DNA of 64,000 nucleotides from Galbibacter pacificus (lineage in GTDB: Bacteria > Bacteroidota > Bacteroidia > Flavobacteriales > Flavobacteriaceae): contig NZ_JAQSVC010000004.1 of NCBI RefSeq assembly GCF_029603165.1, forward strand, positions 248,001 to 312,000, written 5' to 3'. Shown in pieces: positions 26,287 to 46,895 of this stretch (its first letter is position 1; every line of letters begins with the position of its first letter). The notes below the pieces were generated by a model that was not told the DNA's origin, made no database searches, and saw only the letters and a list, made by a program, of their open reading frames with translations. The position numbers were made by a program, and so were the translations under genes.

Positions 26287-29175
26287 TCAATCCAAGTTGC
26301 GTAAAAATTCTTGCAGTTTGTCTTCGTGCTCCAAGTTTAGCTTTTTCCGAAGGCGGTAACGCAAGGTTTCCACTCCGCGCACAGAAATATTCAACAAAGG
26401 CGAAATCTCTTTGTTCGACAAGTCCATTTTGATAAAAGCACATAGGCGCTGCTCTTTTTTTGAAAGCTTCGGGTTGATTCTTTTCAGTTTTTCAAAAAAC
26501 TGGTAATGAACGTTTTCAAAATTCACATCAAAAACCTCCATGTATTCTTCCCCTATTTTATGCTGATGCAGTTTCCTGAAAATATCGGTAATTTTTTGTC
26601 GGGAAGTTTGCGTGCGCACTAATTGTCTCAATTCTTTTAAATCGTTTTGCAAATCGTTGAATGCATCTTTTTTATTTACCAACTGCATGGTATAATTGGC
26701 CAATTCCTTGCTTTTTGTAATGATGTTTTTTTCCAGGACTTCTTTATCCCGCTCAATCCGCTCTTTATCATGTTGCAATTTTAAGCTTTCTATTTCTAGC
26801 TCCAACATTCTCTTTGCCTTTAAGTTTGCGGCTTGGGCCTTCTCATTTTCTTTTTCAAGACTCCTCTTAATCAGCTGGAAACCAAGCCACAACAAAAATA
26901 AAAACACTACTACCAAAAATATTCTAATTACAGTTGTTTGGTACCATTTGGGCATTACCGTAAACATATAGCCCGCAATTTCCCCATGGCTCCCATTTAG
27001 GTTACGGCTTCTTACCTTAAATGTATATGTTCCCGGTTGCAGGTGCGAATATTCTTTAAAACTATTTGCAGCCCATTCGGACCAACCAACATTAAGTCCT
27101 TCAAGAATATATTGAAACTGAACACTTCCATCAGAAATAAGGTTTGGCGATGCAAAATTGAACCGAATAACATCGGTATTGTTGGGAAGTTCCACAGCTT
27201 CTTTCTGCTTAACAACAAGGTTCTCTTTATCCTGATTGTGAAACTTCACCACTTTGGTTATAAGTGTGTTGGTTTCGCAGGCATTATCAATTTTTAAATC
27301 GAATAAATAAATGCCATCGGTTGTTCCTGTCAATACTTTTCCGCTAGGGAGTGGCAATATACTTTCCATACCCCTGTTTAATTGCCCTTTTACTTTTAAA
27401 AAAGGTTTGGTTTTTGGGGTCGGTGTTGCATCAGAGGTAACAAAATACCCTATTTCATTGTCTTGTACGAGCCAAGTGGTATCTTTAAGTTGCAAAATTT
27501 TACGTGTGTTTTTGGTGGTGTCCAAAATACTATTAAGCGGTTTATAGGGAACAAACTGGTTCAACTCATTATTGTATGTATATACGCCTGTATTGCTGGT
27601 AAAAACTATATGGTTGTTCCATTTAAAAACATTGATGTTGAAAGGCGACTCGAAACCGTTGTTATTGGTGTAGTGATCTATGGAATATACATGACTGTAA
27701 TTTTCGTTTATCTTTATTTTATACACTCCCTTATACCCATGGCATACCCAATAGGTATTGGGTTGATCGGCCGCTACAATGTCCCTGGTCGACTCTGTAA
27801 AGCCATTAATTTTATTAATCATTTTATATGTATCACCTTCTTTGTGTATAAGCGTTAAGCCCGTATATCCACAAGCCAGAAATTGATCTTTTTCTCCCGG
27901 AATATCCAAAGTTTTCCAAACTCCGTTAAGTGTAATCCGGGACACTGTATCATTTTTATATAGATAAAGCCCTTTATGATGCCCAATTAACAAATCTCCG
28001 TTTCGTTCTTGAAAACTCCATGCCTGCCCTTGCAGTTCTGAAATTAGTTCAAAAGAAAACCTCCCCGGAGCTTCGTTATTATATTTAGACACAAAAACCC
28101 CTTTGTTTGCCGCAACAAACAAGTGGTTGTTATAAATATGCAGATCGTATATTTTAGTAGACTCAAAAAACTTAACAGACGCTGTTTTATAATTAATAAA
28201 ATCCAGGCCATTATACAACATTACCCATAATCCGTTCTCCACGTTAAGCAAGTTTAGCACAGATGGATTCTGGATATGTTTAAAAGCGGCAGGGGTATTA
28301 ATGCTTTTTCCGTTGGCATCGAGCATTTTAATTTTAGAGCTCAATGTTCCCAATAAATAAGTATTGCCTTTCCTCGTCGAACTAATTACCTGATCGCTCT
28401 CTTGGTCTTTAAAGACATCTTCCCAAAGCTGTACCTTTTTAGTTTTCACATTCCCTTTGTATATGGCGCCATTCTCTAAAAAAATCAATAGTTCATCGGG
28501 CTTGTTTGTTGGCCAAAAGCCTTTTATCGCATTGTTTTTTATAGGATTGGAAGTAAATACCTGCGCTAGTTGATTGGTATCGGGGTTAAAACTAAGCACC
28601 CCAATATGGATGTCCTGTACATAGTAGGTCCCGTTAACAACATTGGCGTTCATAAAATCTGTGGTAGATGGTATAATAGTTTTTCTATTATCGCTTACCA
28701 CTATTAATTCTTTGTAAAACCGAAAAATTATATTGTCCCCCAGTTGATGAATTTGCTCAAGGTTTTCAAGTTCCTGCCCTTCCAGTTTTAGCTGATGGAT
28801 CATTGAACTGTAATGATAATTTCCCAAACTATCCTTTTCTATCGTCCCAAATTCGTTATATCCGCCGGCATAAATTTCCCCTTTTTTTGTGGCCAATAGC
28901 GAACGTACGGAAGAACTATTTGGCAAGACTACTTTTTGCCATGTTTCACCATCATAAATTACCACCCCATCATTATTCCCAAAGTAAAGTACCCCATCAT
29001 TGCCTTCACAAGCAGACCAAAATTCGGAATCGCCTTTAAAATCCGATCGATCAAAATGAATTACTTCGGGTTGATTGGCAACAGAATCAACAATTTGAAA
29101 AAAAGACCGCTGTGAATATGCATTAGCTGCAAAAAAAAAGAGCAATAATTCAATATATAGTAATCTTAACCTCAT
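26287..29175 (-). CDS. Membrane-bound triple-tyrosine/LuxR transcriptional regulator of the glucan locus
   Basis: A sensor-regulator of 962 residues. An N-terminal signal sequence (MRLRLLYIELLLFFFAANAYSQ) exports a beta-propeller-like sensor of about 680 residues. This is followed by a triple-tyrosine (Y_Y_Y) domain (EGLNVGWSEWA, LQPGTYTFKVRSRN), one transmembrane helix (about VIRIFLVVVFLFLLWLGFQL) and a long coiled coil (about 780-880). It ends in a LuxR-type helix-turn-helix (LSKKEQRLCAFIKMDLSNKEISPLLN). The sensor is periplasmic and the HTH cytoplasmic, so one protein spans the membrane without histidine kinase domains. I use ATG 29175; an ATG 11 codons upstream is possible. It is divergent from susC and presumably activates the locus on oligosaccharide binding. 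Confidence 0.88.
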   Translation of the reverse strand: MRLRLLYIELLLFFFAANAYSQRSFFQIVDSVANQPEVIHFDRSDFKGDSEFWSACEGNDGVLYFGNNDGVVIYDGETWQKVVLPNSSSVRSLLATKKGEIYAGGYNEFGTIEKDSLGNYHYSSMIHQLKLEGQELENLEQIHQLGDNIIFRFYKELIVVSDNRKTIIPSTTDFMNANVVNGTYYVQDIHIGVLSFNPDTNQLAQVFTSNPIKNNAIKGFWPTNKPDELLIFLENGAIYKGNVKTKKVQLWEDVFKDQESDQVISSTRKGNTYLLGTLSSKIKMLDANGKSINTPAAFKHIQNPSVLNLLNVENGLWVMLYNGLDFINYKTASVKFFESTKIYDLHIYNNHLFVAANKGVFVSKYNNEAPGRFSFELISELQGQAWSFQERNGDLLIGHHKGLYLYKNDTVSRITLNGVWKTLDIPGEKDQFLACGYTGLTLIHKEGDTYKMINKINGFTESTRDIVAADQPNTYWVCHGYKGVYKIKINENYSHVYSIDHYTNNNGFESPFNINVFKWNNHIVFTSNTGVYTYNNELNQFVPYKPLNSILDTTKNTRKILQLKDTTWLVQDNEIGYFVTSDATPTPKTKPFLKVKGQLNRGMESILPLPSGKVLTGTTDGIYLFDLKIDNACETNTLITKVVKFHNQDKENLVVKQKEAVELPNNTDVIRFNFASPNLISDGSVQFQYILEGLNVGWSEWAANSFKEYSHLQPGTYTFKVRSRNLNGSHGEIAGYMFTVMPKWYQTTVIRIFLVVVFLFLLWLGFQLIKRSLEKENEKAQAANLKAKRMLELEIESLKLQHDKERIERDKEVLEKNIITKSKELANYTMQLVNKKDAFNDLQNDLKELRQLVRTQTSRQKITDIFRKLHQHKIGEEYMEVFDVNFENVHYQFFEKLKRINPKLSKKEQRLCAFIKMDLSNKEISPLLNISVRGVETLRYRLRKKLNLEHEDKLQEFLRNLD

Positions 29176-29414
29176 AATAATGATAAATAAACGCCCAATT
29201 AACATCATTTAAAGCAAAAAAACCAATAAAATAAATAAAAAGTTAAATATATAACTAATTATCATTCAGAATACTATAAATTTTGAAGTACTTTATGCGT
29301 AGTTGATAACTATATTGACGTAATTAAAGCGTATTCAAAAAAATAGCCTCTCCATTATCAAATTCTAATTTAGTTGACCTAAAAACCAAGCCGAAATCGT
29401 TTTCGCCTTTATTA

Positions 29415-29435
29415 TTATTATCATATTGATAATAA
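29415..29435. promoter_or_regulatory. Candidate operator upstream of susC
   Basis: A 9-bp perfect inverted repeat TTATTATCA-TAT-TGATAATAA lies in the 283-base divergent intergenic region, 57 bases before the susC start. A dimeric LuxR-type regulator encoded next door would suit such a site. The rest of the intergenic region is AT-rich and shows no clear TAnnTTTG element. Confidence 0.45.
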
Positions 29436-29491
29436 AATTGTTAAAACGCAATTGGCAACTAGCAAACTAACTCACTTAATTTAAACAATTT

Positions 29492-32400
29492 ATGAAGATC
29501 AACAAGTATTTATGGTTATGCTTTTGGTGTATCACCTCAACAGTGTTTGCACAAACAAAAGAAATAACCGGAACTGTAACAGAAGAAGGGGGCGTTCCCC
29601 TTCCCGGAGCAAATGTTATAGTAAAAGGCACAACAAAAGCTACAGTAACAGATTTTGACGGAATTTATACCATTCAGGCAAGTCCCGGGGATATCCTGCA
29701 AATATCATACATAGGGTACATTACCAAAGAAATTAACGTTGGTGGTCAAACCACTATTGATGCATCTTTGGTTCCCGACACTCAGGCTCTGGACGAAGTG
29801 GTGGTTGTAGGTTATGGAACACAAAAGAAAAGCGTGGTAACCGGAGCCATTTCGAGCGTAAAAGGGGAAGATTTAGAAGACCTGCCCATTACAAGGGTTG
29901 AACAGTCTTTACAAGGTAGAACGTCTGGGTTGACCATTGCCGCAAACTCTGGACAACCGGGTTCCTCCTCTACGGTTCGCGTAAGGGGTATAACCACATT
30001 TGGAAACAACAATCCCCTTTGGGTGGTAGATGGTGTTGTGGTAGATGCCGGCGGAATTGGATATTTAAACCAATCGGATATTGAATCTATCGAAGTTTTA
30101 AAAGATGCCGCATCTCAAGCAATTTATGGTGCACGGGCTGCCGCTGGTGTAATATTGATTACCACCAAAAAAGGAAAGTCTGGCAAACTTACGGTAAACT
30201 ACAACGGTTATACTGGAATTTCTGCCCCAGCCAGGAAATTAGATCTCTTGAACGCCGAAGAATATGCAACCATTATGAACGAGGCTTATGTAAACGGAGG
30301 CAGTAACCCCATTTTTGCAAACCCGCAATCTTTGGGTGAAGGAACCGACTGGCAAGATGTTATCTTTAATAACAATGCACAAAGAATTGGTCAAGAGGTA
30401 AGCTTAAATGGTGGTAACGATGTATCTACTTTCTTTGCCTCATTTGGTTTTTTAGAACAGGAAGGCATTGTAATGCCCGAAATTTCTCAATATAAAAGAA
30501 CCAGCATCCGCTTGAATTCTTCCCATAAAATATCAAAAGCAATTACATTCGGGCAAACGGCCGGATATTCCAGGGAAAAAAACATGGGCATTGGCAATAC
30601 CAATAGCGAGTTTGGAGGCCCTTTAAGTTCTGCTATTAATTTAGATCCTACTACGCCAATAGTGGAAACAGACCCAGCAAAACTTAACGCCACACCCTAT
30701 ACCATTTCATCGATTGTAAGAGATGCCAATGGCAATCCATACGGTATTTCTTCTTTGGTAGGGCAAGAGATGACAAATCCGCTTGGTTACCAACAAACGC
30801 GTTTGGGCAATTATGGATGGTCAGATAACTTTGTGGGAAATGCATATGTACAAATAGAACTGCTCCCGGGGCTTAAAGTTAAGAGTACCTTGGGCGGAAA
30901 GTTGTCTTACTGGGGCGGCGAAAGCTTTACGCCTGTTTATTACTTAAATGCTTCAAGCAATACCTCTCAAAACAATATTTCTAGAAATACAAATAAAGGG
31001 TTTGGTTGGAATATTGAAAATACGATATTATACGAAAGAAGCCTTGGAAAACATAACTTTGATATTCTTTTAGGACAAGGTGTATACGTAGACAACATTA
31101 CCAGTGGGGAAAGCGTTACTTATTACGATATCCCGACGAACAATTACCAAGATGCATCATTTAATTATAGTGTTCCTACAGACCAAATAAATGCTTCAGC
31201 ATATACAAACCCCGACCATCGTGTTACATCGTTATTTTCAAGGGTTAATTATGATTATGACGAAAAATATATCTTCACGGGAATTATTAGGCAAGACGGG
31301 TCTTCCAGGTTTGGATCAAACAACAAATATGGTATTTTCCCTTCATTTTCATTGGGATGGGTACTTACAAAGGAAGATTTTTGGCAACAGAGCAATATTT
31401 TAAATCAGTTAAAAATCCGTGGAGGTTATGGAATTACCGGTAGCGATGCCATCGGGGACTTTAGATATCTTTCAACTATTGGAGGTGGCAGAAATTATAC
31501 CATCGGAACCTCTGGTTCGGTAACAATCGGTAATAGCCCAAATGCGCCTTCCAATCCCGATTTAAAATGGGAAGAAACCAGCCAAACAAACATTGGCTTA
31601 GAAGCTAGGCTGTTAAGCAATTTCAGCTTGGTCTTGGATTTTTACAACAAAACAACTAAAGGGATTTTACAAGATGTTCGTATTCCAGGTTATGTCGGAG
31701 CTACAGGAAATCCGGTTGGAAATGTGGCAGATATGGAAAACCGAGGAATTGATGTTGAGCTTGGTTACAATAGGACTTTTGGCGACTTTACGGTATCGGC
31801 TAATGCCAACCTGTCGTACCTAGAAAATGAAGTGACATTTTTAGGAAATGATATAGATTATTTATCCGGTGGACAGACCATTCAGTCAAGTACATATCCT
31901 ATTACAAGAACAGCTGTTGGGCAACCGTACAATTCGTTTTATGGATTTGTTACCGATGGCGTCTTTCAAAACCAAACAGAAATCGACAATTACACAAACA
32001 GTGAAGGGAATTTAATCCAGCCAAATGCTGTTCCGGGCGATTTTAAATGGAAAGACGTAAATGGCGATGGAGCAATAAGTGAAGACGATCGCGATTTTAT
32101 AGGCAGTTCAATCCCTAAATACACTTATGGGTTTACAGTAAACCTTACCTATAAAAACTTCGATTTGATGGTTTTTGCACAAGGTGCCGCAGGGAACAAA
32201 ATTTTCCAAGGTTTAAGGCGTTTAGACATCCAAAACGCCAATTATCAAACTACTGCTCTTAACCGTTGGGTTGGCGAAGGAAGCTCTAACAGCTTCCCAA
32301 GGTTAACTATTGATGATACTAACAAGAATTTTAACAACCCTTCTGATTTTTACTTGGAGGATGGCGATTACCTAAGGGTCAAAACCGTACAGTTTGGCTA

Positions 32401-32593
32401 TACTCTGCCAGACGCTGTTATACAAAAAATCGGATTAAAAAGGCTTAGACTGTACTTAACAGGTGAAAACCTGTTTACATTCACCAAATACACTGGTTAC
32501 GACCCCGAGATTGGTGGTGGTGTTTTTGGTATCGACAGAGGTTTCTATCCTCAAGCAATTACAGGAATGTTAGGCGTAAATCTTCAATTTTAA
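29492..32593 (+). CDS. SusC/RagA family TonB-dependent outer-membrane transporter
   Basis: Imports oligosaccharides across the outer membrane with energy from TonB. The 1033-residue protein has a signal peptide (ends near TVFAQ), a carboxypeptidase-regulatory-like domain (EITGTVTEEGG...YIGYITKEINV), a plug beginning DEVVVVGYGTQKKS, the SusC signature region (LKDAASQAIYGARAAAGVILITT), and a beta barrel ending in Phe (MLGVNLQF). It forms a bucket-and-lid complex with the SusD protein encoded 10 bases downstream. A SusC without a SusD could serve siderophores, but the pair and the hydrolases fix the role as glycan uptake. Confidence 0.96.
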   Translation: MKINKYLWLCFWCITSTVFAQTKEITGTVTEEGGVPLPGANVIVKGTTKATVTDFDGIYTIQASPGDILQISYIGYITKEINVGGQTTIDASLVPDTQALDEVVVVGYGTQKKSVVTGAISSVKGEDLEDLPITRVEQSLQGRTSGLTIAANSGQPGSSSTVRVRGITTFGNNNPLWVVDGVVVDAGGIGYLNQSDIESIEVLKDAASQAIYGARAAAGVILITTKKGKSGKLTVNYNGYTGISAPARKLDLLNAEEYATIMNEAYVNGGSNPIFANPQSLGEGTDWQDVIFNNNAQRIGQEVSLNGGNDVSTFFASFGFLEQEGIVMPEISQYKRTSIRLNSSHKISKAITFGQTAGYSREKNMGIGNTNSEFGGPLSSAINLDPTTPIVETDPAKLNATPYTISSIVRDANGNPYGISSLVGQEMTNPLGYQQTRLGNYGWSDNFVGNAYVQIELLPGLKVKSTLGGKLSYWGGESFTPVYYLNASSNTSQNNISRNTNKGFGWNIENTILYERSLGKHNFDILLGQGVYVDNITSGESVTYYDIPTNNYQDASFNYSVPTDQINASAYTNPDHRVTSLFSRVNYDYDEKYIFTGIIRQDGSSRFGSNNKYGIFPSFSLGWVLTKEDFWQQSNILNQLKIRGGYGITGSDAIGDFRYLSTIGGGRNYTIGTSGSVTIGNSPNAPSNPDLKWEETSQTNIGLEARLLSNFSLVLDFYNKTTKGILQDVRIPGYVGATGNPVGNVADMENRGIDVELGYNRTFGDFTVSANANLSYLENEVTFLGNDIDYLSGGQTIQSSTYPITRTAVGQPYNSFYGFVTDGVFQNQTEIDNYTNSEGNLIQPNAVPGDFKWKDVNGDGAISEDDRDFIGSSIPKYTYGFTVNLTYKNFDLMVFAQGAAGNKIFQGLRRLDIQNANYQTTALNRWVGEGSSNSFPRLTIDDTNKNFNNPSDFYLEDGDYLRVKTVQFGYTLPDAVIQKIGLKRLRLYLTGENLFTFTKYTGYDPEIGGGVFGIDRGFYPQAITGMLGVNLQF

Positions 32594-32603
32594 AAAACAG
32601 ATC

Positions 32604-34112
32604 ATGACTTTAATAAATACAAAACATAAAATTTTAGCCCTCGCTTTAGTTGCGATAGTAAGTTCGTGTTCTAAAGATTTTTTAGAGGTAAAACCTGAAG
32701 GAACAGCCCTTGAAGAAAGCTATTATTCAACTCCCGAAGAGGCATATTCTGGACTTATAGCAGTATACGATATTCTGGGAAAACAGTCCCGTGGCTTTGA
32801 AAATATGGTAACAATGATGAACGCTGGCTCAGACGACCATTATGCAGGCGGCGGCGGTGCTACAGATGGTGCCGGCATACAGTCTTTTTCCAATTACAGT
32901 ATCGATGCATCGACCATTCCCGCCAGTTATTGGAACGACTTTTATCAAGGTGTTTTTAGGGCCAACGTCCTTTTGGACAAACTTCCCGATGTGCCTATGG
33001 ACGAAACCTTAAAAAGCAGATATGCTGCCGAAACAAAAGCATTACGGGCACATTTCTATTTTGAATTGGTACGCATGTTCAAGAACATTCCATTAATTAT
33101 AGAACCCCTTGAAACATCTCAAATATATGAAGTTGCTCAAGCAAACCCCGAAGAGGTTTATGCTCAAATTGAAACAGATCTTAAGGAAGCTATTCCAAAT
33201 TTACCTTTAAAAATAACCGATCTAGAAAACGAAGCCGGAAGGCTTTCGCAAGGAACCGCAATGGCCATTTTAGGGAAAGTTTATCTGTATGAAGGAAAAA
33301 ACGATTTGGCAGCTTCAACATTGGCACAAGTTAACGGGACCCCAGGCGGAACCAGTAAATATGGTTATAAATTGTTGAACGATTATAATAACCTTTGGGT
33401 TATCAGTAACAAATTCAATACTGAGTCTATTTTAGAATCCTCGCATACAGACCAAAGTAATGCCGGTTGGGGTAATTGGGGGTCCGGGTCGGATGAAGGG
33501 AACTCTATCAATATCATGGTTGGCCCCAGAAATTACAATGCATCAGAAGATGGCCCAGATTATGTTTCGGGATGGAGTTTTAACCCAATTACCCAAAATT
33601 TATATGATGCCATGAAAGAAGACCCACGTTTCGATGCTACCATTGCCGATGTTAAAGCGCTTAAAGAAGATGGATTGGCCGATTATAGCCCTGGTTATTT
33701 GGACACTGGTTATTTCTTAAAAAAATTCATGCCCTTAAATTCTGATAAATCTACCGGAGGTGGGGCAGTAGAGCTAAACTTTAAACAAGATGTATACATC
33801 ATCCGTTTAGCCGACACCTACCTTATGGAAGCAGAAGCATTGGGCGCACAAGGCTCAAGGGCGCAAGCTTTATTGGATGCAGTACGTGCACGTGTAGGGC
33901 TTGCCTCCACCCCTGTTTCCATGGATGCCATTATGCACGAAAGAAGAATGGAATTGGCTGGAGAAGGACACCGATGGTTCGATTTGGTTAGAACAGGAAA
34001 AGCGGCTTCTGTTCTAGCCGACAGAGGTTTTACAGCCGGGAAGAATGAGATTTTCCCGATTCCGCTTCAGGAAATGGAAAACACATTAATTGAACAAAAT
34101 CCTAACTACTAA
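32604..34112 (+). CDS. SusD/RagB family surface glycan-binding lipoprotein
   Basis: Lid of the SusCD importer, 502 residues. The lipobox ends in SSC at about residue 21. Acidic residues soon after the cysteine (SKDFLE) agree with the Bacteroidota surface-export signal. SusD landmarks include the DFLEVKPEGTALEESYYSTPEEA opening, tetratricopeptide-like helices (AETKALRAHFYFELVRMF), and the C-terminal RRMELAGEGHRWFDLVRTGKA. It should bind the polysaccharide at the cell surface. Confidence 0.95.
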   Translation: MTLINTKHKILALALVAIVSSCSKDFLEVKPEGTALEESYYSTPEEAYSGLIAVYDILGKQSRGFENMVTMMNAGSDDHYAGGGGATDGAGIQSFSNYSIDASTIPASYWNDFYQGVFRANVLLDKLPDVPMDETLKSRYAAETKALRAHFYFELVRMFKNIPLIIEPLETSQIYEVAQANPEEVYAQIETDLKEAIPNLPLKITDLENEAGRLSQGTAMAILGKVYLYEGKNDLAASTLAQVNGTPGGTSKYGYKLLNDYNNLWVISNKFNTESILESSHTDQSNAGWGNWGSGSDEGNSINIMVGPRNYNASEDGPDYVSGWSFNPITQNLYDAMKEDPRFDATIADVKALKEDGLADYSPGYLDTGYFLKKFMPLNSDKSTGGGAVELNFKQDVYIIRLADTYLMEAEALGAQGSRAQALLDAVRARVGLASTPVSMDAIMHERRMELAGEGHRWFDLVRTGKAASVLADRGFTAGKNEIFPIPLQEMENTLIEQNPNY

Positions 34113-34123
34113 ATCGCAAAAAA

Positions 34124-34996
34124 ATGTCATTTAAATACAATCATATAAAAAAATTCGGAACAATGGCCATTGCAATAGGATTGTTCTTTGGCTGTCAGCC
34201 CGATGAAATCGACGAAGGAAATGGTCTTACAGACCCCAATGTAGATGCTTCGTTTACTATTTCGCCCATCGAGGGGAAAACCAATCGATATTTACTGGAA
34301 GCGCAAACCCAAAACGTAATTTCATCGCAATGGGATTTTGGCGACGGGGTTTTTAAAGGTAAGATGACCGAAGAAGTTTTTTATCCAGATGCCGGAACCT
34401 ATAACATTACCCATATTGCCGTTGGCCGTGGTGGCGCAAAAGGCTCTTTAACCAAAGAATTGGTGGTAGAAACCTCCGATCCAGTTGCAGGAAACCTGGT
34501 TCAAGGTGGAAAATTTGCAAATGAAGACGATTATGCTAAATGGACTATCCTTAAAATTAACCCTTCAGGATCTGAATGGGTTTTTAATGAAGGCAGTGCA
34601 ACTCTTTATTCAACAGAAAGCTCTAGCCAACAAGGCATTTATCAAACCATTGAAGTAAAAAAAGATAAGGTTTATACCATAGACATGAAAGTTTCTGGAG
34701 GCGCCAATCAAGATACTTGGTTTGAAATCTATGCAGGAACCACTGTTCCTCAAGAAGGTTCGGATTATACAGATACACGAATTATGGGATTAAATACATG
34801 GGATGGATGCGGAAATGAAGCCTTTAGCGGGAAATTATCTCAAATTGGTTGTGTAAAAAATTCGCAAACGGAAACCGTTTCCAATGAAGTTACTTTTGAG
34901 CAAGACGGCACAATTTATTTAGTTATCAGGGGAGGTGGAGCTTCTGTGGCACCCGAAGGAATAACGATAACAGATGTAGAAATGAGAGGTTCTTAA
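34124..34996 (+). CDS. PKD-domain surface glycan-binding lipoprotein (SusE/F position)
   Basis: A 290-residue lipoprotein. The lipobox (LFFGC) is followed by the acidic stretch QPDEIDE, a surface-export type signal. Domain 1 is a PKD fold (residues about 40-125; WDFGDGVFKG and AGTYNITHIAVG are typical). Domain 2 (about 130-290) is a beta-rich, carbohydrate-binding-module-like domain with aromatic residues (AKWTILKI, EWVFNEG, DTWFEIYAG). Its position right after susD matches surface glycan-binding proteins of laminarin-type loci. The exact ligand cannot be read from the sequence. Confidence 0.8.
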   Translation: MSFKYNHIKKFGTMAIAIGLFFGCQPDEIDEGNGLTDPNVDASFTISPIEGKTNRYLLEAQTQNVISSQWDFGDGVFKGKMTEEVFYPDAGTYNITHIAVGRGGAKGSLTKELVVETSDPVAGNLVQGGKFANEDDYAKWTILKINPSGSEWVFNEGSATLYSTESSSQQGIYQTIEVKKDKVYTIDMKVSGGANQDTWFEIYAGTTVPQEGSDYTDTRIMGLNTWDGCGNEAFSGKLSQIGCVKNSQTETVSNEVTFEQDGTIYLVIRGGGASVAPEGITITDVEMRGS

Positions 34997-35017
34997 TCCT
35001 TTTTATAGTTAGCTATT

Positions 35018-35058
35018 AAAAGAGGATGTCTTGATTTCTTGTCGGGACAGCCTCTTTT
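35018..35058 (+). terminator. Hairpin between binding-protein and hydrolase genes
   Basis: AAAAGAGGATGTC (35018-35030) pairs with GACAGCCTCTTTT (35046-35058) with one mismatch. The T-rich end of the right arm follows a GC-rich base, as in an intrinsic terminator. It lies between the glycan-binding-protein gene and the first GH30 gene, so it may partly terminate transcription and lower hydrolase expression relative to susCD. Confidence 0.6.
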
Positions 35059-35089
35059 ATTTCCATTACAACTTCTGAAAAAAATCAAT

Positions 35090-36553
35090 ATGAAAATTAC
35101 GCAAAAAGCAGTATTTATCTTTCTTTGTTTTTTAATTTTTACGGCTTGTTTTTCACCTTCAGATGATGATCCGGTTAATCCCACGCCAGACCCTACCCCC
35201 ACACCAACACCCGATATCAAAAACGAAGTTGATTTTTGGGTCACAATGGGAGATCAATCTCAAAAATTAAAAAAACAATCAGAGCCTATTGCCTTTGTTT
35301 CGTCAGCAAATAATTATGCCACCATTAATGTAAACCCTACTAAAACATATCAAACCATCGATGGTTTTGGCTTTACATTAACTGGCGGAAGTGCTCAGGC
35401 AATTCAACGTTTATCTTCATCTGAAAAAAGCAATTTACTGAAAGAGCTTTTCGGAAACGGAGAAAATGCCATTTCCATAAGCTACTTGCGTGTAAGCATT
35501 GGTGCTTCCGATTTAAACGAAGCTCCTTTTACTTATTGCGAGGTACCTGAAGGCGAAACCGATACCGAACTGGAAAATTTTAGTCTGGAAAAGGATATGG
35601 ATGGCGTTATTTCCCTGTTGAAAGAAATTCTTGTTATCAACCCAAATATAAAAATACTTGGCAGTCCATGGACCGCCCCGATTTGGATGAAAAACAACAA
35701 AAGTTATATTGGCGGCGAGCTGCTTCCCGAATATTATGATGCTTATGCGCAGTATTTTGTAAAATATATCAGTGCAATGAAAGAACAAGGCATTACCATT
35801 GATGCCATTACCCCACAAAACGAGCCGTTGCACGACGGGAACAACCCAAGCATGTACATGCCTGCCCAAAATCAAGCCGAATTTATAAAAAATAATCTGG
35901 GGCCTGCTTTTGAAGCTGCCAATATTGAAACAAAAATTATTGCTTGGGACCACAATTGCGATAATCCAGATTACCCAATTACAGTTTTTAACGATCCTGA
36001 AGCCTATAAATATACAGATGGTGCTGCTTTTCATTTATACTCGGGCGATATAAGTGTACTTTCAACCGTACATAATGCTTTTCCGGATAAGAATGTGTAT
36101 TTTACGGAACAATACACCTCATCGCAAGGAGATTTTGGGGGTGATTTAAAGTGGCATTTAAAAAATGTAATTATAGGTTCCATGCGAAATTGGAGCAAAA
36201 ATGCCCTTGAGTGGAATTTGGCCAACAACGAATATTACGAGCCTCATACCAATGGGGGTTGTACTGTTTGCAAAGGTGGATTAACTATAGACAACGCCGG
36301 AAATATTACCCGAAATGTTGGGTATTATATTGTTGGGCATGCCTCTAAATTTGTTCCGCAGGGGTCTGTTAGCATTGAAAGCAACATAAGTGGAACGCTA
36401 CAAAATGCTGCGTTCTCCACCCCAAATGGCAAAATTGTGCTTATTGTGGAAAACGATGGCGGCAACGACGAATCTTTTAATGTAAAATACAATGATAAAT
36501 GGTTTACAATAGCGCTTCCAGCGGGGGCCGTTGGAACCTTTATTTGGAAATAA
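35090..36553 (+). CDS. Glycoside hydrolase family 30 lipoprotein, first copy
   Basis: A 487-residue retaining beta-glycosidase. The acid/base Glu245 is in TPQNEPLHDGNNP and the nucleophile Glu340 in YFTEQYTS, within a (beta/alpha)8 barrel flanked by the GH30 side beta-domain. The N terminus is a lipoprotein signal (FTACF) followed by SDDD, a strong surface-export signature, and a Pro/Thr-rich linker (about PTPDPTPTPTPD). This suggests a surface enzyme on a flexible tether. GH30 members of this type cleave beta-1,6-glucan or beta-1,3/1,6-glucan side chains. I start at ATG 35090; the frame extends upstream only through a TTG in the hairpin. Confidence 0.87.
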   Translation: MKITQKAVFIFLCFLIFTACFSPSDDDPVNPTPDPTPTPTPDIKNEVDFWVTMGDQSQKLKKQSEPIAFVSSANNYATINVNPTKTYQTIDGFGFTLTGGSAQAIQRLSSSEKSNLLKELFGNGENAISISYLRVSIGASDLNEAPFTYCEVPEGETDTELENFSLEKDMDGVISLLKEILVINPNIKILGSPWTAPIWMKNNKSYIGGELLPEYYDAYAQYFVKYISAMKEQGITIDAITPQNEPLHDGNNPSMYMPAQNQAEFIKNNLGPAFEAANIETKIIAWDHNCDNPDYPITVFNDPEAYKYTDGAAFHLYSGDISVLSTVHNAFPDKNVYFTEQYTSSQGDFGGDLKWHLKNVIIGSMRNWSKNALEWNLANNEYYEPHTNGGCTVCKGGLTIDNAGNITRNVGYYIVGHASKFVPQGSVSIESNISGTLQNAAFSTPNGKIVLIVENDGGNDESFNVKYNDKWFTIALPAGAVGTFIWK

Positions 36554-36564
36554 ACAACAACATA

Positions 36565-38274
36565 ATGAAGAATTTAATTAATATCTTATTTCTGGCCATA
36601 ACAGCAATTGGTTTTTCACAAAACCTGCATACCGATGGTCAAAAAATTGTAAACGAAAAAGGCGAAAATGTATTGCTAAAAGGAATTGGCCTTGGCGGAC
36701 ACATGCTCCAAGAAGGTTATATGCTTAAAGTTCCCTTCTCGGGTCAGCAATATGTTTTTAAACAACATATTGAAGCATTAATTGGAAAAGAAGCTACGGC
36801 AGAATTTTACAACCGTTGGCTTGCCAACCATACCCAAAAAACCGATATCGATTCGTTAAAGAGCTGGGGGTTTAACTCTGTTAGGCTTCCCATGCATTAC
36901 AATCTTTATACGCTCCCCATAGAAGACGAACCCGTAAAAGGCAAACAAACATGGCTGGAAAAAGGTTTCCAGATGACCGATTCTTTATTGCAATGGTGCA
37001 AAGAGAATAAAATGTACCTCATTCTAGACATGCATGCCACTCCGGGCGGACAAGGACACGACCTAAACATATCCGACCGCGACCCCTCTAAACCTTCCTT
37101 ATGGGAAAGTAAAGCCAATCAAGAGAAACTCGTTGCGCTTTGGCAAAAATTGGCCGAAAGGTACAAAGACGAAGCATGGATTGGCGCCTACGATATTATT
37201 AACGAGCCCAATTGGGCATTTACCGGAAAACATAAAAACGGGATAGACGAACAGGAAAACAAACCGCTTAAAAAATTAATGGTAGAAATCACCAAAGCCA
37301 TTAGGAAAGTAGATAAAAAACACATCCTCATTATAGAAGGAAACGGCTGGGGAAATAATTACAACGGCGTTCTTCCCCCATGGGACGACAATATGGTAAT
37401 TAGTTTCCACAAATACTGGAACTACAACACCCAAGCTGAAATTCAAGGTTTTTTGGATTTTCGGAAAAAATACAATACCCCTATTTGGTTAGGCGAAACC
37501 GGGGAAAACTCGAATGTATGGTTTACCGATGCTATTACTTTAATGCAGCAGAACAATATTGGTTGGTGCTGGTGGCCGCTAAAAAAGCTGGGCTTCAACA
37601 ATCCATTGGAGGTTAAGGTAAACCCGGGCTATCAAAAATTGTTGGATTATTGGGCTGATAAAGCCGATAAACCCACTCAAAAAGAAGCTTATGACGCACT
37701 GATGCAACTCGCCGAAGATGCTAAAATTGAAAACAATATTTTCCATAAAGATGTTGTAGATGCCATGATGCGCCTACCATTAACAAACGGAACAAAATCA
37801 TACAAAGCAGTAAATATTGATGAAGATACATTGATAAAGGCAGTAAATTACGACCTTGGAAAGCTTGGCATTGCTTATTTTGATACCGATTATGGAAATT
37901 ATTACGTTTCTACCGGAAAAGAGCGCACAGGATGGAACAATGGCCGCACCTATAGAAACGACGGCATTGATATTTACAAAGACGAAAGCGGGTATTATGT
38001 AGGCGATACCCAACGTGGCGAATGGCTTCAATATACTTTTGAAGCTTCAGAAGAAGGGGATTATGAAATTGCATTTACTACAAAAACTACTTCGGAATGT
38101 GCTGTTTTAATAGAAAACAAGGATGGATATTCTGAAGTAATTACAATTGCCAAAAACTTATCTTGGAACACTTCAGAAGCAAAAAAAATAACGCTTAACA
38201 AAGGTTTCAATCAACTCAAAATTACCGTTCTTAAAGGTCGGCCGGACCTAAAGGAAATTCTTATCAAAAAATAA
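36565..38274 (+). CDS. Glycoside hydrolase family 5 with C-terminal CBM6-like domain
   Basis: A 569-residue secreted endo-beta-glycanase. The signal peptide ends near residue 16 (AIGFSQ). The GH5 barrel covers about residues 20-380 with the acid/base Glu214 in IINEPNW and nucleophile Glu311 in WLGETGENS. RLPMHYN and HATPGGQGH are GH5 landmarks close to exo-1,3-glucanase-like members. The last 130 residues (about 440-569) read as a CBM6-like beta-sandwich (RNDGIDIY, GEWLQYTF, GDYEIAF). There is no lipobox, so the enzyme is periplasmic or secreted. Specificity for beta-1,3, beta-1,4 or beta-1,6 linkages is not decidable by eye. Confidence 0.85.
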   Translation: MKNLINILFLAITAIGFSQNLHTDGQKIVNEKGENVLLKGIGLGGHMLQEGYMLKVPFSGQQYVFKQHIEALIGKEATAEFYNRWLANHTQKTDIDSLKSWGFNSVRLPMHYNLYTLPIEDEPVKGKQTWLEKGFQMTDSLLQWCKENKMYLILDMHATPGGQGHDLNISDRDPSKPSLWESKANQEKLVALWQKLAERYKDEAWIGAYDIINEPNWAFTGKHKNGIDEQENKPLKKLMVEITKAIRKVDKKHILIIEGNGWGNNYNGVLPPWDDNMVISFHKYWNYNTQAEIQGFLDFRKKYNTPIWLGETGENSNVWFTDAITLMQQNNIGWCWWPLKKLGFNNPLEVKVNPGYQKLLDYWADKADKPTQKEAYDALMQLAEDAKIENNIFHKDVVDAMMRLPLTNGTKSYKAVNIDEDTLIKAVNYDLGKLGIAYFDTDYGNYYVSTGKERTGWNNGRTYRNDGIDIYKDESGYYVGDTQRGEWLQYTFEASEEGDYEIAFTTKTTSECAVLIENKDGYSEVITIAKNLSWNTSEAKKITLNKGFNQLKITVLKGRPDLKEILIKK

Positions 38275-38277
38275 AAA

Positions 38278-39687
38278 ATGCTACAAAAATATAACTTACT
38301 GTTACTGGGAATTGCTTTTATTGCATTTTCTTGTTCAACTAAAAAAGAACAACAAAACAACGATGCATTGTTATGGGTTACTTCCCTGGATAAATCTGTA
38401 TTGTTAAAAAAAGTCCCGATTGAAAACCATTCTGAAAAACCCCCTGGAAATGCAGTTATTATAAATATTGACACCACAAAAACCTACCAAACCATGGATG
38501 GGTTTGGGTACAGCTTAACAGGCGGTAGCGCCATGCACCTTTATAAAATGAGCGATTCTGCCCGGATAAAAATCTTGGAAGAGCTTTTTGGCACGGGCAA
38601 AAACAGCATTGGGGCAAGTTATTTGCGGATAAGCATTGGTTCTTCGGACCTTGATGAGAAACCTTGGTCTTATGATGATATTGCCGAAGGAAAAACCGAT
38701 GAAAATTTAGAACACTTTTCTTTGGCTTACGACACGCTTTATTTAATTCCGGTATTAAAGGATATTCTAAAAATAAATCCCGATATAAAAATAATGGGCT
38801 CGCCATGGTCGCCCCCAAAATGGATGAAAACCAATAACGATACCCGTGGCGGAAGCTTAAAAAAAGCATACCATGAAGTATATGCCCAATATTTTGTAAA
38901 GTATCTCAAAGCGATGGAAGAACACGGGATTACCTTGGACGCCATTACCGTACAAAACGAGCCCCTGCACCCCGGCAACAACCCCAGCACGCTTATGCTG
39001 GCGGCACAACAGGCCGATTTTATTAAACACAATCTGGGACCTGCTTTTAATAAAAATAACATTACGACCAAAATTGTGATTTACGATCATAATGCCGACC
39101 GGATTGATTACCCTATTTCTATTTTAGACGATCCCGAAGCTGCCAAATATATAGATGGCGCTGCATTTCATTTATACGGCGGGGAAATTGATGCACTTTC
39201 CAAAGTACATCAAAAGCATCCGGATAAAAATCTTTATTTTACCGAACAATGGGTGGGTGCACCGGGCGATTTTGAGAAAGAAATGGAATGGCATACCGAA
39301 AATCTTATTATTGGCGCTACGCGAAACTGGTGTAAAACGGTTTTGGAATGGAACTTGGCCGCTGATGAAAAAATGGACCCACATACGGACAGGGGCGGAT
39401 GCGATATTTGTTTGGGCGCCATAACCATTAAAAGTGACTCTGTATCACGAAATCCGGCATATTATATTGTAGCACAAGCTTCTAAATTTATACCCCCGAG
39501 TTCGGTAAGGGTTGCCTCCAGCACCAATGATATGGTTCCTAATGTAACTTTTAAAACCAAAGAAGGAAAGATTGTTTCTGTCATATTGAATAAAACCGAT
39601 CAACCTCAGCAAGTTCAAATAAAAATAGGCCATACAAATGTATACGTTCAAGTTATGGCAAGAGCTGTAGCAACACTTGTTCAATAA
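38278..39687 (+). CDS. Glycoside hydrolase family 30 lipoprotein, second copy
   Basis: A 469-residue GH30 paralogue of the gene two positions upstream. The acid/base Glu228 is in TVQNEPLHPGNNP and the nucleophile Glu323 in YFTEQWVG. A lipobox (AFSC) is followed by STKKEQQ, which lacks the acidic surface signal of the first copy, so a periplasmic-facing outer-membrane location is possible. It shares long colinear stretches with the first GH30 (YQTxDGFG, TGGSA, GSPW, YFVKY) but differs around both catalytic loops. It starts three bases after the GH5 stop, so the three hydrolases are cotranscribed. Confidence 0.87.
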   Translation: MLQKYNLLLLGIAFIAFSCSTKKEQQNNDALLWVTSLDKSVLLKKVPIENHSEKPPGNAVIINIDTTKTYQTMDGFGYSLTGGSAMHLYKMSDSARIKILEELFGTGKNSIGASYLRISIGSSDLDEKPWSYDDIAEGKTDENLEHFSLAYDTLYLIPVLKDILKINPDIKIMGSPWSPPKWMKTNNDTRGGSLKKAYHEVYAQYFVKYLKAMEEHGITLDAITVQNEPLHPGNNPSTLMLAAQQADFIKHNLGPAFNKNNITTKIVIYDHNADRIDYPISILDDPEAAKYIDGAAFHLYGGEIDALSKVHQKHPDKNLYFTEQWVGAPGDFEKEMEWHTENLIIGATRNWCKTVLEWNLAADEKMDPHTDRGGCDICLGAITIKSDSVSRNPAYYIVAQASKFIPPSSVRVASSTNDMVPNVTFKTKEGKIVSVILNKTDQPQQVQIKIGHTNVYVQVMARAVATLVQ

Positions 39688-39718: not shown

Positions 39719-39742
39719 AAAAGAGGCCAATTGGCCTCTTTT
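39719..39742. terminator. Bidirectional terminator, glucan locus / crotonase
   Basis: A perfect 10-bp stem (AAAAGAGGCC / GGCCTCTTTT) with a 4-base AATT loop sits between convergent genes. Its A and T flanks let it serve both strands. Confidence 0.85.
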
Positions 39743-45247: not shown

Positions 45248-46024
45248 TTAATCACGCCCCAAGCAATAGGTAAGACCTCCCAATACATGCGCTACAAAAA
45301 GGGGTTCTGAATAAGACTCGATGGTATGGCCCCCACCGATATAAAAGGCCCGGCCACCATCAAACTCATGATACCATGCAATTGGATGGTGCTCGCCGTT
45401 TTCTCCGCCTTCATATGAATTTTCATCTAAATTAAGCAACACATGTATATCGGGGTTAATATCTTTAAAGTTATACCACTCGTCGTTCCTTTCCCACGTT
45501 TTTCCGGGCAACATTTGTGTTGAGACATGTGATTTATCTAGAATCTGTATTGTGGCCTTTCGTACATTTGGGTTATTAGGGTGACTTACAAAATAAGCCC
45601 CGACCAGTTTTCCGTACCATGGCCAGCCATATTCGGTATCGCTGGCGGCATGGATGCCCATAAAACTGCCACCGTTTTGAATGTATTTTTTAAAGGCCTG
45701 CTGTTGTTCGTCCCCAAGTACGTCCATGGTGGTGGAAAGAAATAAAACTACTTTGTATTTTGATAGGTTCGATGTGTTAAACTGCAACGAATCTTCTGTA
45801 TGCACAACTTTAAAATTATTTTCATTTCCCAGTTTTTTTATCAGTTCGACACCTGTTTCAATAGATTTGTGCCTATATCCATTGGTTTTTGTAAAAACAA
45901 GCACCTGTTCTTCCTGCGGTACTTTGCCCGTGTTATCTTTTTCTGAATCTTGTGCGGTACAAAATAAAAAGCAATTGAGGAACAAAATAAAAAAGACTTT
46001 GCAAGTTGGTTTTAAGCTTATCAT
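45248..46024 (-). CDS. ThuA-domain secreted protein
   Basis: A 258-residue protein with a signal peptide (ends around CTAQ) and a ThuA domain, a class I glutamine-amidotransferase-like fold. Typical segments are LVFTKTNGYRHKSIETG, GGSFMGIHAASDTEYGWPWY and GRAFYIGGGHT. ThuA is linked to trehalose or sugar utilisation in rhizobia, but its biochemistry is unsettled. Here it starts three bases after the AraC regulator stop on the same strand, so it may be a target or co-expressed partner of that regulator rather than a heme gene. Confidence 0.85.
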   Translation of the reverse strand: MISLKPTCKVFFILFLNCFLFCTAQDSEKDNTGKVPQEEQVLVFTKTNGYRHKSIETGVELIKKLGNENNFKVVHTEDSLQFNTSNLSKYKVVLFLSTTMDVLGDEQQQAFKKYIQNGGSFMGIHAASDTEYGWPWYGKLVGAYFVSHPNNPNVRKATIQILDKSHVSTQMLPGKTWERNDEWYNFKDINPDIHVLLNLDENSYEGGENGEHHPIAWYHEFDGGRAFYIGGGHTIESYSEPLFVAHVLGGLTYCLGRD

Positions 46025-46027
46025 AAT

Positions 46028-46885
46028 TTAAGTGTTTAATGACATTATGTATTTTTTTGGTGTGGTTCCGTACTTTTTCTTGAAAGCGGCAATAAAATGA
46101 CTTGCGGTGCTATATCCTACGCGCAAACCGACTTCGTTTACATTAAGTTCGCCCGTTTCGAGCATTTTTCGCGCATATTCCATTTTATAATCAAACAAAA
46201 AACTATACACCGAATCTCCATAGACCTGCTTAAACCCTTCTTTTAATTTTTTTAAGTTTAACCCTATTTCATCCGACAGTTCTTGAAGCGAGGGCGGTTC
46301 AGCCATTCTGGAAATAACAATGTCTTTTGCCTTTCTAATGCGGCGGACATTGTCTTCGTCTATTAAAAACGGACATTGTTCTATATCGGCGTCTTCCGGT
46401 TTGTTGAAATAAAGGCTCAATAGCTCGTATATCTTCCCTTTTAAATAAAGCGGCTTTATGGACGGGTGCAGATTATAATTCATTATCTGGCTTAAAACCA
46501 CAGACATCACCGGGGTTATTATGGCATTGTTGTAATATTTCTTATCTATGTTTTCTTCATTTAAAAAATGAATATAATCTGCTTCCGAAGAAAAAAGCGA
46601 GTGAAACTTCTTTATGGGTATCAATACGGAGATAAGCCAGGTTTTCGAGTTGAGCTCCAAATTGATGGGTAAATCCCGTTGTGGGTTGTAAAGTAGTAAA
46701 GCTTGGTCTTCTTTTAAGTCAATGGCATAATTTCCCTGGTTAAAATGAAAAATCGAACTTCCCTTTAAACAAAAGTGGAACTGGATAAAACTACTGTCAA
46801 TTTGTTTGCTAATATGCTGAATGTCATTACCTTCATTTTGAATTTTCAACAAAGTCAGCCTATCTTCAATTATAATTTCTTCCAT
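46028..46885 (-). CDS. AraC family transcriptional regulator
   Basis: A 285-residue one-component regulator. The C-terminal third has two helix-turn-helix units of the AraC/XylS fold (LQELSDEIGLNLKKLKEGF, then VNEVGLRVGYSTASHFIAAF, and KKYGTTPKKYIM). The N-terminal 190 residues are a putative sensory domain without an obvious cupin signature. I use ATG 46885; a GTG two codons upstream is in frame. It is divergent from hemA, shares a 238-base intergenic region carrying direct repeats, and is cotranscribed with ThuA. The natural hypothesis is control of hemA and/or itself in response to iron or heme. Confidence 0.88.
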   Translation of the reverse strand: MEEIIIEDRLTLLKIQNEGNDIQHISKQIDSSFIQFHFCLKGSSIFHFNQGNYAIDLKEDQALLLYNPQRDLPINLELNSKTWLISVLIPIKKFHSLFSSEADYIHFLNEENIDKKYYNNAIITPVMSVVLSQIMNYNLHPSIKPLYLKGKIYELLSLYFNKPEDADIEQCPFLIDEDNVRRIRKAKDIVISRMAEPPSLQELSDEIGLNLKKLKEGFKQVYGDSVYSFLFDYKMEYARKMLETGELNVNEVGLRVGYSTASHFIAAFKKKYGTTPKKYIMSLNT

Positions 46886-46895
46886 GAGCACTTAC

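Follow-up and report, generated by a model that had tools for sequence, protein, structure and literature searches.

A 64,000-nucleotide stretch of the Galbibacter pacificus genome (hereafter the window, on contig 16 of a 4.04-Mb genome in 21 contigs) encodes, at positions 26287-39687, a polysaccharide utilization locus (PUL) that is probably devoted to a laminarin-type, beta-1,6-branched beta-1,3-glucan, and that would represent a reduced form of the published laminarin PUL variant D. Laminarin is described as a molecule of major importance in the marine carbon cycle (PMC7104365). The locus consists of one divergent regulator and six co-directional genes that encode, in order, SusC, SusD, a surface binder, a glycoside hydrolase of family 30 (GH30a), a GH5 enzyme and a second GH30 enzyme (GH30b); adjacent SusC and SusD genes accompanied by glycan-active enzymes are the hallmark of a PUL in Bacteroidota. 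All seven reading frames are intact, and the gene set of the original prediction, as well as the lack of GH16, GH17 and GH3 genes within the locus, was borne out at the coordinates given there by the open reading frames (ORFs) and Pfam matches.

In North Sea Flavobacteriia, variants C and D of the laminarin PUL carry a GH5 gene with a CBM6 carbohydrate-binding module (CBM), together with GH16 and GH30 genes and no GH17 (PMC6298971). The window locus shares with them SusC/D, a GH5 with a CBM6-type module, GH30 and the lack of GH17, as well as a laminarin-type SusD in the case of variant D, but it has neither a GH16 nor a GH30_1-type gene, and it has two genes on the GH30_3 side. Variant B, with its GH17 and GH30_1 genes, is not a match, as the locus lacks GH17 and its GH30 enzymes are not nearest to GH30_1. 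GH16 is also missing in some Formosa among the GH5_46 loci described in PMC6794258, where the accompanying GH30 is labelled GH30_1, in contrast to the GH30_3-side enzymes found here. Because variants C and D and these GH16-less loci have been described, the window locus can be regarded as a published type with a smaller enzyme set. Thus, the earlier description of the locus as unlike typical laminarin loci is correct for the three missing families, but GH17-less GH5-CBM6/GH30 variants, and the loss of GH16, have precedents. Functional studies of variants C and D were called still necessary by the authors who defined them (PMC6298971).

The SusD-type lipoprotein (32604..34112, plus strand) links the locus to laminarin through its orthology to GMSusD of Gramella sp. 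MAR_2010_102 (PDB 6GCZ), with a score of 703 bits, as compared to 181 bits for the next solved SusD, and with identity at 311 of 480 aligned residues (64.8%). GMSusD has been crystallised, and citing papers report that it binds branched laminarin and pustulan and that a triad of tryptophans is critical for substrate recognition. All three binding tryptophans are matched in the window protein by W289, W292 and W324, from which similar ligand binding is predicted. The triad is not kept in two further SusDs from this genome, which are 25-27% identical to the window SusD and to GMSusD, and the Leeuwenhoekiella SusDs have a tyrosine at the first tryptophan position. The SusC/D pairs of variant D cluster with those of variants A and B, and Gramella sp. 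MAR_2010_102 is itself a variant D strain (PMC6298971). The window locus falls within this laminarin cluster by the tree and the identity to 6GCZ, as judged for SusD alone.

GH30a (35090..36553, plus strand) and GH30b (38278..39687, plus strand) each contain the GH30 TIM barrel and the GH30C domain of Pfam, and are 49% identical to each other. Their nearest solved relative is BT3312, a GH30_3 enzyme, to which they score 284 and 271 bits, respectively (36.2 and 34.6% identity), whereas other solved GH30s score at most 166 bits. Both are closer to BT3312 than to GH30_1, and the reverse is seen for a GH30_1-type sequence from the same-family locus L043 (a single sequence, with 170 bits to BT3312 and 252 bits to glucosylceramidase, the GH30_1 representative). 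Among 345 genomes of the phylum (floor E-value of 1e-60), scores against the BT3312 model form three bands, at 821 and 887 bits (two genomes), about 337-454 bits, and about 209-309 bits. A tree of 120 GH30 sequences comprises BT3312 with two orthologs (support 1.0), 89 members of an AB group that includes both window enzymes (support 0.78), and 28 members of a GH30_1-type C group (support 1.0), corresponding to 3, 85 and 27 distinct sequences, the AB and C labels having been assigned beforehand by profile score.

The BT3312 residues D131, W179, N237, E238, N244, H281, N282, E339, W377, C393 and C396 (numbering and mutant data from PMC5481569) are kept in both window enzymes, and the catalytic pair and -1 subsite are kept in GH30a. 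Conservation extends to the AB clade, where the catalytic pair and the Cys-Cys pair are present in 89/89 members and N244 in 88/89. Both window enzymes lack D286 and also W345 of subsite -2, the replacement of which by alanine leaves BT3312 with 0.4% activity. Across the clade, 88/89 members have no tryptophan at W345 (66 with a gap) and 89/89 have no residue at D286, while 87/89 have a nucleophile loop shortened by 2-3 residues, and a Trp, Tyr or Met is found two residues past the nucleophile in 83 of the 85 distinct sequences. The sole AB member with a tryptophan aligned at W345, from locus L138, has a longer loop and the top BT3312-model score of the clade (454 bits). Proximity to BT3312, the position in the tree, the altered residues, and the affinity of the L043 sequence for GH30_1 are together suggestive of GH30_3-side enzymes, a placement that stops short of proven membership in GH30_3.

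The relationship to BT3312 raises the alternative that the locus is dedicated to a linear or fungal beta-1,6-glucan of the pustulan type, as a counterpart of the Bacteroides thetaiotaomicron PUL1,6-beta-glucan (PMC5481569), with the beta-1,3 part not attacked by the products of this locus. The two loci share SusC/D, a surface glycan-binding protein (SGBP) and a surface GH30 that is, or is nearest to, BT3312; in addition, the window locus encodes no beta-1,3-glucanase from the known laminarinase families, and pustulan is among the reported ligands of GMSusD. However, the B. thetaiotaomicron locus includes a beta-glucosidase, whereas the window locus has no GH3, and hence does not pair a GH30_3 enzyme with a periplasmic GH3 beta-glucosidase, and it has an extra GH5 and a second GH30. 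The near-complete absence of W345 and complete absence of D286 in the AB clade also argue against this alternative, the GH16 and GH30_1-type genes in syntenic relatives fit a branched beta-1,3-glucan, and the conserved triad is the one reported as critical for recognition in a binder of branched laminarin. A dedicated pustulan locus is thus considered unlikely.

The GH5 enzyme (36565..38274, plus strand) matches the Pfam Cellulase family with 118.6 bits. Its C-terminal module scores above the cut-off for CBM_35_2 (30.8 bits) and below it for CBM6 (20.6 versus 28.9 bits), such that the predicted GH5-CBM6 arrangement is confirmed as a GH5 with a C-terminal module, but with the module resembling CBM35_2 more than CBM6. 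Translation probably starts at the ATG at 36565, rather than at position 36499 of a mechanically called ORF that overlaps the end of GH30a, because a signal-peptide-like N-terminus results and relatives agree with this start. Counted from this position, the catalytic glutamates lie at 214 and 311, a spacing of 97. Three genomes from another family of the same order (L174-L176) encode a 576-amino acid GH5 that is 55% identical to the window enzyme, with glutamates at 215 and 312 and with a PCMT gene, a GFO/IDH/MocA oxidoreductase and a 2-hydroxyacid dehydrogenase as neighbours. The cbGH5 gene of Chryseobacterium sp. HT1, assigned to GH5_46 by CAZy, is flanked by two oxidoreductases, a PCMT and one unknown gene, and its product has published catalytic glutamates at 215 and 312 (PMC5812240). 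By glutamate positions and gene context, the genes of L174-L176 are apparent CbGH5 orthologs, and it is through them that the window GH5 groups with GH5_46, CbGH5 itself being compared by its published description, with which the window enzyme shares the glutamate spacing, a similar length, and a GH5 domain with a C-terminal CBM.

Longer GH5 proteins, of about 1080-1095 amino acids, are encoded in the same-family loci L049, L050, L051, L053, L054 and L055, and one of 1297 amino acids in L052; the L049 protein, the only one scanned, combines two CBM6 stretches with a Por secretion-system sorting domain, suggestive of type IX secretion. Relatives of the window GH5 are also found outside Bacteroidota, in Caulobacter (L133), Cellvibrio (L117) and a gammaproteobacterial metagenome-assembled genome (L135). 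The structure model of the GH5 was unfit for a fold search, with a mean pLDDT (predicted local distance difference test) of 61.

Characterised GH5_46 enzymes suggest a second alternative, namely that the GH5 sets the target and that this is a beta-1,4-glucan, a mixed-linkage glucan or xylan. CbGH5 is active on carboxymethylcellulose (CMC) and birchwood xylan, and more weakly on barley beta-glucan, in a paper whose main text does not contain the word laminarin (PMC5812240), and a rumen GH5_46 enzyme acts on CMC (PMC3526467). These activities argue against a pure beta-1,3/1,6 reading, and the predicted beta-1,6-linked or beta-1,6-branched target is backed by the SusD and GH30 relationships but not by the characterised GH5_46 enzymes. 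However, no assay of CbGH5 on laminarin or pustulan is given in the published passages, and in the published fragment CbGH5, assayed as a cellulase-xylanase, is not part of a SusC/D locus. Likewise, its apparent orthologs stand alone with no adjoining SusC/D, whereas the window GH5 is embedded in a SusC/D locus whose SusD and GH30 enzymes point to a beta-1,3/1,6-glucan. Moreover, at least 595 named candidate stretches include at least 576 that encode a GH5 relative, and in the best 80 of these, GH5 lies in the same co-directional run as an AB-group GH30 (GH30AB) in 45. It is thus very unlikely that the GH5 sets a beta-1,4-glucan, a mixed-linkage glucan or xylan as the target.

Among the same best 80 loci, SusC and SusD lie in the GH5 run in 36, the run is devoid of all seven families screened for in 27, and SusC, SusD and GH30AB without GH16, GH3 or the C-group GH30 (GH30C) are found in 14, of which 12 are Pedobacter with other genes downstream. 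Family labels in relatives come from small home-made profiles, to which GH17, GH2 and other families are invisible. GH5 homologs (E <= 1e-50) are present in 24 of 299 family genomes, and the SusD (E <= 1e-120) in 20 of 397, the window's own genome included in both counts. The 19 other SusD loci, some of which stop at contig ends, contain GH30AB in 16, GH30C in 15, GH5 in 10, GH16 in 10 (11 if a fragment at the contig end of L045 is counted) and GH3 in 7. Two pairs of stretches, L042 with L060 and L058 with L202, appear to come from the same genomes. The locus of Leeuwenhoekiella marinoflava DSM 3653 (L057) has the regulator, SusC, SusD, SGBP, GH30, GH5 and GH30 in exactly the window's order, with a GH5 63% identical to that of the window and the Tyr substitution noted above, and Robertkochia solimangrovi has the same set plus GH3. 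One genome (G310) has SusC, SusD, SGBP, GH30AB, GH3, GH16 and GH30C in a single run without GH5 (L178), and a lone GH5_46-type gene elsewhere (L172).

None of the 19 relatives lacks GH30C, GH16 and GH3 together, as the window locus does, which could be taken to mean that it is a decaying laminarin locus that has lost GH16, GH30_1 and GH3 and is now a helper or on its way out; the intact frames, the same gene set in L. marinoflava and, with GH3 added, in Robertkochia, and the grouping of the window SusD with that of Robertkochia (support 0.99) make this extremely improbable.

Elsewhere in the genome, one GH16 and six GH3 genes are present, and the only PF02055 matches are the two GH30 genes of the locus. 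GH17 was not detected in the genome, where the built-in control was also silent, although the same model matches 34 of 120 same-family genomes. A fuller laminarin locus was sought around these genes and rejected, as the lone GH16 lies between a SusC/D locus that includes F5/8-type and BSP proteins and a set of genes matching transferase and TRCF-helicase families. Similarly, of the three GH3 flanks scanned by gene family, two include GH92, GH2 and GH95, and one includes a PF10091 glycoamylase-type enzyme and a sulfatase; the flanks at L037, L039 and L041 were seen as ORF lists. The genome may have no second laminarin-type import locus, with GH55, GH64, GH81, GH128, GH149 and GH158 outside the search.

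Besides the GH5_46 activities, several points weigh against a laminarin-type target. The locus lacks a glucosidase as well as any laminarinase of GH16 or GH17, and GH30a and GH30b fall short of the 700-bit equivalog cut-off of NCBIfam NF053856 (400.7 and 414.5 bits) and lack W345. Two congeneric genomes lack both the SusD and the GH5. Gramella sp. MAR_2010_102 has two laminarin PULs, either of which may be the source of GMSusD. Finally, the SusC/D of variant C cluster elsewhere, and the authors allow for another function (PMC6298971), while some were placed with laminarin types in a later paper (PMC6794258).

If the locus does target laminarin-type glucan, a route of degradation can be proposed in which linkage specificities, localisations, order of steps and inducer are extrapolated from the observed gene content, orthologies, conserved residues and synteny. 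The SGBP and SusD would hold the glucan at the cell surface, where the GH30a lipoprotein would cut beta-1,6 links, and SusC/SusD would import debranched or short chains. A soluble GH5_46 would then cut the backbone in the periplasm, with GH30b removing leftover beta-1,6 links, and final glucose release would depend on GH3 glucosidases from other parts of the genome. The Y_Y_Y/LuxR protein would sense an oligosaccharide and turn on the operon. Such sequential outside-inside digestion is plausible, but the export signals, judged by eye like the start codons, differ in part from those first described. GH30a has the expected surface-type signal, lipoprotein-like with an acidic stretch past the Cys, whereas GH30b, whose signal had been called not obvious, carries the lipoprotein-type signal FIAFS-C. 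The GH5 signal, also called not obvious, becomes signal-peptide-like once the start is set at 36565, and only this enzyme looks soluble and secreted. A necessarily periplasmic GH30b is not supported by the acidic residues after the Cys (mean of 3 in the GH30a clade versus 2.86 in the GH30b clade, with 8/13 and 7/7 members, respectively, caught by the pattern, and a Cys visible in the printed starts of the five missed).

Three further genes complete the locus. The regulator (26287..29208, minus strand; 973 amino acids) contains Y_Y_Y (33.5 bits) and a C-terminal LuxR/GerE helix-turn-helix (26 bits), both above the Pfam cut-off, and its relatives adjoin SusC in related loci. The SusC-type TonB-dependent transporter (29492..32593, plus strand) scores 903 bits for TIGR04056 and is 64-74% identical in seven same-family syntenic loci, one with a partial gene; SusC/RagA and SusD Pfam matches lie in the respective genes. 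The binder (34124..34996, plus strand) is a lipoprotein with a PKD-like domain and a beta-sandwich. Its predicted PKD-type nature is only partly upheld, as PKD_4 is below the Pfam cut-off (23.4 versus 27 bits), whereas a binder profile matches PKD domains in SGBP-B proteins from Bacteroides (best E-value 9.4e-8), one of which has been solved with laminaritriose. Its structure model (mean pLDDT of 80) matches BtSGBP-B in Foldseek at a low TM score, with domain-level matches only.

The genes are closely spaced, with gaps of 10 bases between SusC and SusD, 11 between SusD and the binder, and 3 between GH5 and GH30b. The exception is the 93-base gap between the binder and GH30a (taking ATG 35090 as the probable GH30a start), where a strong stem-loop separates uptake from enzyme genes (34994..35089, plus strand; minimum free energy -23.9, z -4.3). 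A stem-loop of differing sequence occupies a like position in the same-family loci L042-L048, all seven of which gave a hairpin when folded; of the five that were scored, L044 and L048 were not significant, and L042 and L043 are outside the scored class. Gaps between SGBP and GH genes (26 in total, median of 92 bases) have z < -2 in 15 of 19 that are at least 40 bases long, as do 14 of 16 such SusD-GH gaps (23 in total), versus 14 of 35 such GH-GH gaps (145 in total, median of 17 bases), a few loci representing one genome twice. This stem-loop, possibly common in these loci, could be an attenuator or a stabiliser of the mRNA 3' end, and the structured gap may allow a single operon to yield more transporter than enzyme. 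No report of such a gap was found in a literature search. Downstream of GH30b, a terminator-like hairpin (39719..39742, plus strand) consists of a 10-bp stem followed by a T-rich tail; it is a consensus match only, of a class not clearly above chance (19 sites in the region versus 14.2 +/- 4.2 in shuffles). A sigma-70 promoter scan was uninformative (35 sites versus 40.5 expected by shuffling).

Two other regions of the genome are of note. A SusC/D locus (L040; G000:C11:940000-956000) encodes a Laminin_G_3 protein, a PF10091 enzyme, a BglX-type GH3 and a sulfatase; PF10091 is a model that GH144 beta-1,2-glucanases match. Within the window, a ThuA-domain protein with a signal-like start (45248-46024) adjoins an AraC-type regulator recognised by eye (46028-46891).

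In the published passages on GH5_46/GH30 loci, no enzyme was assayed on laminarin or pustulan, and searches on GH5_46, on GH30_3 with flavobacteria and laminarin, and on Leeuwenhoekiella with laminarin, in which subscription journals are thinly covered, returned no title or abstract start reporting such enzymes tested on laminarin. A tentative and rather speculative possibility is that the GH30a/GH30b clade constitutes an unassigned subfamily beside GH30_3, with an altered -2 subsite that confers specificity for beta-1,6 branches attached to a beta-1,3 backbone, and that its usual GH5_46 partner is a branch-tolerant beta-1,3-glucanase, the two forming a minimal laminarin system of three enzymes that lacks GH16, GH17 and GH3. 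The three-enzyme locus of G. pacificus represents a compact test case for the roles of GH5_46 and of this GH30 clade.

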